Notes under the pieces: model-generated
Told to the model about the DNA's origin: nothing
The model's database searches: none
Seen by the model: the letters and a program-made list of their open reading frames with translations, nothing else
Position numbers and translations under genes: made by a program
Part shown: one piece after another, positions 23,560 to 28,397 of the stretch
How the letters are laid out: each line of letters opens with the position of its first letter
Position numbering within the stretch: the first letter of the stretch is position 1
From: Debaryomyces hansenii CBS767
Lineage: Eukaryota > Ascomycota > Pichiomycetes > Serinales > Debaryomycetaceae
Assembly: GCF_000006445.2 (NCBI RefSeq)
Contig: NC_006044.2
Coordinates: 930,001 to 994,000, forward strand
Length of the DNA stretch: 64,000 bases
Direction: 5' to 3'

Positions 23560-25395
23560 ATGCAGCCATTGATTCAAAAAGATCTTTTAACTTGGTGTGA
23601 TGATTTACATCAAGTTAAAGGGAATATTTCTCAATTGCAAGCCACTCTTAATCAAATCTTAACGAAAGCACCAAGTTTGGACCAATATAGAGAATTATCA
23701 ACGTATTTAGATAATCCAAACAAGGGTGATGCGTCAAGTATTATCGACAAGACCAGGAATTTCTTAAGCTCTTCACAATTAAAAGTAGCGGTTAGAATGA
23801 AATTTTTGTATGATCAGGGATTATTGCCGTTTCTATTGGCGTTATCCCAGATAAATTTCAAATCTGTGAAATCGGATAAGTTTGTGGGCTACTTGTTGGA
23901 TTACACGCCGCCGCGAGATATTGGGAGCAATTTGGCGAAGGTATTGAAGCAGAGGGTGAATTCGGGCAAGCAGGTGAATATTGAGTCGTTTCCGCCGGTG
24001 TTGCCCCCAATATCGAATGAGAGCTTGTTGAATAAGATTCTCACGGATAAGTCGTTCAGACAGCCGGCAGATTTTTTGGAGCTGAACGACGCTAACGACT
24101 TCAACCGGTCGCACAATGCCAAGTTAGGGTTGAGAGGGAAGAGGTTGTTAGAATTTGCATTAATCGAGATATTGGACGAGAAGCTTCCCGATATTCACGA
24201 GGACGATTTGTACTACTTGCAGTTCAAATTGGTGTCGACGTCCATTCTCACTAAACTAGCATTCGGATATAATTTGGCGGATAACTACAAGTTCCACTTT
24301 TCGAAGGAAATGAATCTAGATGATAAATTGGCAAAATTAAGTAACATATTCTTGGCGTACATTGGAGGATTGGCCTTGGATGGGTATTCTTTTGCAGAAA
24401 TCAAGTTATGGATTGCGAAATTGTATGAGCCCATAATACAAGATTTCAATGAGAATAACGACACGTTGAAGCCATTAAACAAATTAGCATTGATCGAATT
24501 GAGCTTCCTATTCAAACAGGTAACAAACATGTACTACATACCACAGCAACAAACGACTCTCCAGTTCGATACGTTGGAAACAGACCCGTACGTAGTGAAA
24601 TTGTCTATAAACGGCCAGACGTTGGGTATTGGTACCAGCAGCATAGGTGTCGAGGAGGCCAAAGTCAGGGCTGCGTCGGATGCCTTTTCCAATAAGCAGA
24701 AAATCGACGATATAATAAGGATCATGATCACGTCGTACGAAGAGCTGCAGAAGTCCAAACAGAACACTCCGGGACCTATGTCTACAAACAGCAGCAACGA
24801 CGATGACGATGACGAAGACTACAGCAAACACAACAATGACAACGACTCGTTGACCGAAGAACCCTACTCGCCGAAAATCGACTCCGAAGAAGAATACGAG
24901 CCGTCGATAGAAGGAAATGCGGCAATCAACCAAGTGAGTGCCCCAAGCCAGAGCCAAGACAAACAGCCCGCGGCCTACACCAATGACAAAATCCATCCGC
25001 ACCCCTACAGCACCTTCCCGGTTCCTCACCAAACACCCCAACCATACGGAGCACCTCCTCCACCTCCACACCAAGCCCAGTTCCAGCATCACCAACATCC
25101 TCCTCATCTCCCAAACCTCCCGTCGCTTCCTCCATATCCCGCAGCCGCACTAGATGCAAAATACCCCCTCGACAACAACGCCAAAAACACATTGTATGCC
25201 GTGCTAGGGTCCAACCACCTCACCCCGGTCTACAGATTCAGCAAAGTTGGCAATGACTTCCAGGTCTCCATCTTGGTCAACGACATAGTCATTGGCACCA
25301 GCGTCGACTCCAACAAAAAGGCTGCAAGTCAACGGGCTGCAATGAACGCCCTTTCCAACAAATCCTTACTTAATCAATTAGGTGTGCATATTTAG
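23560..25395 (+). CDS. dsRNA-binding protein with a catalytically dead RNase III-like domain
   Basis: A 611-residue protein from the first available ATG. A helical N-terminal region (1-150) precedes an RNase III-like fold (about 180-300). Gapless comparison with the NERLEFLGD-type signature gives NAKLGLRGK, so both Glu and the Asp are replaced. The second catalytic motif (DxxEALIGG) reads NIFLAYIGG, replacing the last two acids. Scaffold positions (P-x-x-x-E-x-D-L, LVS, IGGLALD) are kept. A dsRNA-binding domain lies at about 331-395 and another at 541-611, separated by an acidic then Pro/His-rich linker. Mitochondrial ribosomal mL44 (MRPL3) also has a dead RNase III, but it has a targeting peptide and only one dsRBD. 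The frame is open upstream to 23425 without an ATG, so a non-AUG extension cannot be excluded. Confidence 0.7.
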   Translation: MQPLIQKDLLTWCDDLHQVKGNISQLQATLNQILTKAPSLDQYRELSTYLDNPNKGDASSIIDKTRNFLSSSQLKVAVRMKFLYDQGLLPFLLALSQINFKSVKSDKFVGYLLDYTPPRDIGSNLAKVLKQRVNSGKQVNIESFPPVLPPISNESLLNKILTDKSFRQPADFLELNDANDFNRSHNAKLGLRGKRLLEFALIEILDEKLPDIHEDDLYYLQFKLVSTSILTKLAFGYNLADNYKFHFSKEMNLDDKLAKLSNIFLAYIGGLALDGYSFAEIKLWIAKLYEPIIQDFNENNDTLKPLNKLALIELSFLFKQVTNMYYIPQQQTTLQFDTLETDPYVVKLSINGQTLGIGTSSIGVEEAKVRAASDAFSNKQKIDDIIRIMITSYEELQKSKQNTPGPMSTNSSNDDDDDEDYSKHNNDNDSLTEEPYSPKIDSEEEYEPSIEGNAAINQVSAPSQSQDKQPAAYTNDKIHPHPYSTFPVPHQTPQPYGAPPPPPHQAQFQHHQHPPHLPNLPSLPPYPAAALDAKYPLDNNAKNTLYAVLGSNHLTPVYRFSKVGNDFQVSILVNDIVIGTSVDSNKKAASQRAAMNALSNKSLLNQLGVHI

Positions 25396-27815: not shown

Positions 27816-28397
27816 ATGAGATTATCTACAGCCATTTTAGCCATATTTATGTTGGTTCTTGAAGTCAACTGTCTCTCAGTTAAGAGATTTTTCGCTCCAT
27901 CGTCTCCGATGTTCTCGTTGATTGCTCATCACAAAGGTGAAGAATTCCAGTACAATTTGGTCAAATTTAACGGAAGTGATATCGTCTTAGGAGGTGATGA
28001 ACAAGCATTCTTTGGAAGAATCAAGGCCAACAATGGGTACACCTTGAACTTGCCATTGGCCAACGGTACTAATACTACTTATCCATCCAACAGAACTGTT
28101 TATGTGGACAAGAACTACAAACTAACTACCACCTCATTCCAAAACCAGTCAAGTGAACACTTTGGCCTTAACAACTCTTTATTGACCTACCAAAATTCGT
28201 CCAAGTTCTTGGCTTGCCCAAATCCAATCGAAAAAGGTCAATATGAGATTTATGCAAACACTAAGGTTAAGAATATCACCTGTCCATCTAATTCGACTGG
28301 TTTCGAAGTAGACTTGTTAGTTCAACTTCAACTTGATGCTGGAATCAATTATAACCCATCGACTAACAAAGCTTCGCTTTTTGGTAAGAAGAAATAA
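27816..28397 (+). CDS. Small secreted N-glycoprotein, probable cell-wall or extracellular protein
   Basis: A 193-residue protein with a signal peptide (residues 1 to about 19) followed by a Kex2-type Lys-Arg at 23-24, so it should enter the secretory pathway and be trimmed. The mature part has nine N-x-S/T sequons and two cysteines. The fold-like pattern FSLIAHHKGEEFQYNLVKFNGSDIVLGG resembles the beta-rich module of yeast wall proteins of the Ywp1/Rhd3/Pir neighbourhood. It lacks a C-terminal hydrophobic tail for a GPI anchor and ends in KKK. A TATA run and long upstream region suggest regulated expression. Family assignment is tentative. Confidence 0.7.
   Translation: MRLSTAILAIFMLVLEVNCLSVKRFFAPSSPMFSLIAHHKGEEFQYNLVKFNGSDIVLGGDEQAFFGRIKANNGYTLNLPLANGTNTTYPSNRTVYVDKNYKLTTTSFQNQSSEHFGLNNSLLTYQNSSKFLACPNPIEKGQYEIYANTKVKNITCPSNSTGFEVDLLVQLQLDAGINYNPSTNKASLFGKKK

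Follow-up and report, generated by a model that had tools for sequence, protein, structure and literature searches.

A putative Cdl1-type pseudo-RNase III of Debaryomyces hansenii with a conserved N-terminal domain and no catalytic acids

Sequence comparison and structure modelling point to a Cdl1-type pseudo-RNase III in Debaryomyces hansenii CBS767: the protein retains the fold, has another residue in place of each catalytic acid, and is best conserved in its N-terminal domain. We favour, with a probability of about one half, the reading that this CTG-clade member of the Dcr1/Rnt1 family is a nuclear scaffold, active in RNA processing or termination, rather than an RNAi enzyme. Its gene lies in a window of 64,000 nucleotides, by which we mean the whole stretch of DNA analysed (contig NC_006044.2, positions 930,001 to 994,000); positions in Table 1 are counted from the first letter of the window.

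Table 1. Gene and protein features of the pseudo-RNase III locus, with the evidence for each.
Feature	Window position	Strand	Evidence
Cdl1-like pseudo-RNase III gene, 611 aa	23560..25395	+	ORF, table-12 translation, 55 homologues
RNase_3_N, N-terminal helical domain, residues 9-115	23584..23904	+	Pfam; AF2 helices between 9 and 114; conservation
RNase III domain, predicted catalytically dead, residues 145-300	23992..24459	+	Pfam; structure match to Rnt1/Dcr1
First signature, NAKLGLRGK for NERLEFLGD, three acids lost, residues 186-194	24115..24141	+	Alignment
Second signature, NIFLAYIGG for DIFEAYIGA, two acids lost, residues 262-270	24343..24369	+	Alignment
dsRBD1, residues 306-378, sequence diverged	24475..24693	+	AF2 model helix-strands-helix
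Linker, acidic and Pro-rich, disordered, residues 403-531	24766..25152	+	pLDDT under 50
Two acidic Y-x-P motifs, residues 430-451, SLTEEPYSPKIDSEEEYEPSIE	24847..24912	+	Likeness to Nrd1-interaction motifs
P-Q-P-Y-G-x-P-P motif in linker, residues 493-503	25036..25068	+	Pattern P[LQ][PQA]YGxxP
dsRBD2, canonical, residues 538-606	25171..25377	+	Pfam; pLDDT block means 90-96 over residues 541-610

The window protein has the RNase III fold and the N-terminal domain of active Dcr1 and Rnt1, as judged from Pfam, the AF2 model and structure matches. The Pfam matches above the cut-off are RNase_3_N (residues 17-101), Ribonuclease_3 (189-275) and dsrm (541-600), and profile searches found two dsrm stretches at E ≤ 1, one of them at E ≤ 0.01. 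Reading CTG as serine (translation table 12) alters two residues, S175 and S396, both outside the signatures. A search of the genome (12.18 Mb, 8 contigs) gave five PF00636 matches, namely L001, the window gene, L003, L004 and L005, and L001 is the single intact Dcr1/Rnt1-type enzyme, with two dsRBDs. The preliminary description, made from the window sequence, had pictured a derived pseudo-enzyme beside a catalytically intact RNase III and had proposed a genome search for the latter; L001 is such an enzyme.

Aligned without gaps to this active enzyme, the window protein reads NAKLGLRGK for NERLEFLGD and NIFLAYIGG for DIFEAYIGA, with A, G, K, N and L at the five catalytic acid positions and thus none of the five acids kept. 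A protein search found 55 homologues, which with the window protein make a family set of 56. Twelve of the homologues have a species name, and all of these we take to belong to CTG-clade genera (Millerozyma, Priceomyces, Suhomyces, Metschnikowia, Scheffersomyces, Australozyma and species called Candida). An acid is retained in 1, 0, 0, 0 and 0 of these 56 proteins in the five columns (1 of 280 cells), whereas it is present in 122 of 122 active relatives in each column (610 of 610 cells). All 56 have the Asn and Gly of the first signature, and Glu persists in 52 of them at a sixth acidic position (E247 of the active enzyme). Since these residues are retained while the five acids vanish, the loss is selective and not a general decay, and we infer that the RNase III fold has been preserved for some purpose other than metal-dependent cleavage. 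The Asp of the first signature has become Lys or Arg in 37 of the 56 proteins, and a basic side chain at this metal position would suit RNA binding without cleavage. The fold, the loss of all five acids and the long acidic and proline-rich linker claimed in the preliminary description are confirmed.

To see where conservation lies, we compared identities in the 11 species with both proteins paired (this genome and 10 named species; 55 pairs). In the N-terminal domain the pseudo-enzymes share a mean pairwise identity of 50.9% and the active paralogues one of 32.3%, while the RNase III domain (44.6% against 57.2%) and dsRBD1 (34.2% against 59.7%) show the reverse; for dsRBD2 the values are 42.3% (36 pairs) and 40.3%. 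By a length criterion, dsRBD2 is absent from 25 of the 56 pseudo-enzymes. Of the "two recognisable dsRBDs" first described for the window protein, dsRBD2 is indeed canonical and dsRBD1 is strongly diverged; two dsRBDs are not a family trait, because dsRBD1 has diverged and dsRBD2 is often missing, and the emphasis then placed on dsRNA binding is weakened, as this is not the best-conserved part. In Rnt1, a longer N-terminal fragment is described as promoting stabilisation of the homodimer (PMC8708148). Taken with the conservation of the N-terminal domain, this suggests that the pseudo-enzyme has retained protein contact rather than RNA cutting. Neither the strength of this N-terminal conservation nor the linker motifs treated below figured in the preliminary description.

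Such contact would also fit a protein that must pair with the one active Dcr1/Rnt1 as an obligate heterodimer, or that regulates it in a dominant-negative way, where a pair with one live and one dead site would lead to nicking or inhibition. We regard this as possible, if on the unlikely side. Both proteins are encoded in this genome, the best conserved part is the N-terminal domain, and 10 of the 12 named species with a pseudo-enzyme also occur, with acids intact, among the active matches listed. The remaining two, both Metschnikowia, could not be matched by name among the 120 of 262 active matches listed, a gap that at this coverage decides nothing. What this reading leaves unexplained is the motifs of the linker.

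In the window protein, the disordered linker (pLDDT under 50 in the model) contains an acidic run followed by Y-x-P. We counted a Y-x-P as acidic when at least three acids occur within the six residues preceding it, a count that only the second of the two motifs reaches (Tyr446). Acidic Y-x-P sites are found in the linkers of 39 of the 56 pseudo-enzymes, against a mean of 1.3 members and a maximum of 6 in 300 shuffles, although the members share ancestry and the family counts are for this reason not independent. At the three-acid threshold 17 of the 56 are without the motif, and five pseudo-enzymes carry a site outside the linker. The position x is Ser, Glu or Asp in 47 of 48 acidic sites, and Ile, Leu, Val, Phe or Met stands two residues past the Pro in 34 of them. 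Active relatives have no acidic Y-x-P in the 120 listed of 262 matches; they are a weak negative control, since their linkers are shorter (52 residues on average, compared with 121) and the expectation from shuffles is only 0.28. As background, a loose match was found in 2 of 86 other ORFs of 150 or more residues in 200 kb, neither of which has the strict form Y[SED]Px[ILFVM], and among the 28 window ORFs of 200 or more residues the motif occurs in the pseudo-RNase III gene alone. A second pattern, P[LQ][PQA]YGxxP, is present in 38 of the 56 pseudo-enzymes and in none of the 120 active relatives listed; of the 25 pseudo-enzymes that lack dsRBD2, 24 have such a motif starting 17-32 residues before the C-terminus.

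Nrd1-interaction motifs, known from Trf4, Sen1 and Mpp6 as mimics of the CTD, are described as having negatively charged residues ahead of Yx(P/L) (PMC10317158) and as sitting in disordered regions (PMC7110113), and the window linker resembles them in both respects. It differs in that the motif is set in a pseudo-RNase III, a candidate CID ligand as judged from sequence and model. We found four CID matches in the genome (L021, L022, L023 and L024). One of them is its Nrd1 (L023, 297 bits to NRD1), in which 9 of the 10 CID contact residues named in PMC4186968 are conserved, as counted by eye on the alignment, with Lys in place of Met126. The Sen1 (L019) and the Trf4/5-type protein (L020) of this genome gave no acidic Y-x-P in a pattern scan, nor did its Mpp6 ORF when inspected by eye, so these known users of the Nrd1 pocket cannot serve as a positive control in this genome. 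Alternatively, a kinase or another protein could dock at the acidic YSP sites.

Among the other CID proteins, the Rtt103-like one (L021:1249-2649, plus strand) has an acidic YDP motif of its own at residue 438, in an acidic tail (STDDDGYDPSSQ), which might serve self-binding or competition. L022:1079-2323 (minus strand) encodes a 415-aa CID-domain protein of uncertain identity.

The scaffold reading that we favour can be set out in three putative steps. The pseudo-enzyme would dimerise through its N-terminal and dead RNase III domains, its partner being either a second copy or the active enzyme; it would grip hairpin RNA but leave it uncut; and the disordered linker would dock on a CID protein (Nrd1, Rtt103 or Pcf11), mimicking the phosphorylated tail of RNA polymerase II. 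Together, these steps would give the protein a scaffolding role in nuclear RNA processing or termination rather than an enzymatic one in RNAi, and the linker motifs hint that it may link structured RNA to the machinery that ends or processes transcripts. The fullest version, in which the pseudo-enzyme of CTG-clade yeasts exchanged catalysis for a polymerase-tail mimic and, as a non-cutting scaffold on hairpin RNA, recruits or competes for CID proteins, so that structured transcripts are coupled to termination and to processing by the exosome, is doubtful, and we put it forward tentatively.

A role as cofactor of a noncanonical Dicer pathway is much less probable still. PMC11047096 counts Cdl1 among the potential RNAi components of C. 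albicans, and the window protein resembles the active enzyme in having two dsRBD-like domains. Nevertheless, dsRBD2 is absent from 25 of the 56 pseudo-enzymes, and no Piwi domain was found in the genome, in a search that, among 14 control genomes, gave a match in the archaeal one only; ArgoN and ArgoL1 were likewise not found, here or in the controls. The same method recovered four CID proteins, Sen1, one PAP_assoc protein and Mpp6, and so is able to find eukaryotic families. Argonaute is thus likely, if not proven, to be absent from this genome. The Dicer partnership suggested in the preliminary description becomes unlikely here as a part of RNAi, because the Piwi domain was not found.

A mitoribosomal protein of the mL44/mL57 kind, which also has the RNase III fold, can be set aside almost completely. 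The mL44 profile PF22935 does match weakly (22.1 bits, cut-off 27; 50 of the 56 members at E ≤ 0.01), and in one quick tree mL57 joined the base of the pseudo-enzyme clade with support 85, where long branches meet. However, mL57 (L003) and mL44 (L004, 210 bits to 5mrc_5) are separate genes in this genome, the family profile gives 133 bits for 7dey against 22 for mL44, with yeast RNase III enzymes scoring far higher, and RNase_3_N, found in the window protein, was not found by Pfam in mL44 or mL57; the N-terminus of the window protein is also, by eye, unlike a presequence. We therefore rejected this identity. Orthology to mL44, which the preliminary description had named as grounds for abandoning its reading, was not what we found.

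Two further ORFs had sub-threshold RNase matches. The fifth PF00636 match (L005:1351-2736, minus strand; G000 contig C7, near 150 kb) is a 461-aa ORF with an RNase III match of 21 bits (cut-off 27), for which a PDB search gave nothing at E ≤ 1 and a single-sequence structure model was uninformative (pLDDT 32.3); it is possibly another degenerate RNase III of this genome. In the window, a 193-aa ORF (27816-28397, plus strand) weakly matches the C-terminal domain of the RNase T2-like kind, at 19.5 bits against a cut-off of 27.

Two trees of 30 pseudo-enzymes and 34 active enzymes place the former on one side of a branch, with support 99 and 100, outside the clade of active Dcr1/Rnt1 enzymes. The stem of the pseudo-enzyme clade is long (1.48 changes per column, quick tree), and in the free quick tree the pseudo-enzymes adjoin the long-branched P0177. 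When they were constrained to group with the active enzymes of the CTG clade, the log-likelihood rose by 16.96, and this tree was not rejected (p-AU 0.81). A search with an alignment of diverse members gave no further pseudo-enzyme and only one extra active-type RNase III, the same P0177. According to a review, C. albicans DCR1 took over the work of RNT1 and so allowed secondary inactivation of RNT1 (PMC5499181). Such an inactivation is a possible origin of the pseudo-enzyme. That the gene is a pseudogene in decay, or a duplicate left over under relaxed constraint, is most improbable. The lost active site, the long stem and the RNT1 inactivation reported in PMC5499181 could speak for it, but the ORF is intact, the family forms one clade that spans several genera and has invariant residues, and its N-terminal domain is more conserved than that of the active enzyme.

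The kind of protein is already known. PMC11047096 describes C. albicans Cdl1 as an RNase III that is inactive and has no known function, although the same paper states a few lines earlier that Dcr1 and Cdl1 belong to an active-enzyme family; a review considers Cdl1 to be apparently devoid of catalytic activity (PMC7175516). The window gene is likewise an inactive RNase III paralogue beside an active Dcr1-type enzyme in a CTG-clade yeast, and we take the two to be of the same family, likened by description and not by sequence. From budding-yeast Dcr1 and Rnt1 (5t16, 4oog, 7dey and 3rv0) the family differs in the absence of all five acids, its separate clade, its motif-bearing linker and its different best-conserved domain. 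The RNase III domains of maize chloroplast RNC1 are also described as catalytically inactive (PMC8708148), although RNC1 has two such domains and acts in a plant organelle; it too is likened by description, not sequence. The openly accessible portions of the literature, the founding 2012 papers excepted, yielded no mention of the breadth of acid loss, the conserved N-terminal domain or the linker motifs.

What the broad alignment brings is that inactivity is common to 56 relatives, together with their best-conserved domain and their short motifs; the scaffold mechanism goes beyond this, as our inference. If the polymerase-tail mimic were true, it would provide an unexpected kind of partner for the Nrd1 pocket, and it would explain why a dead relative of Dicer persists in the apparent absence of Argonaute.
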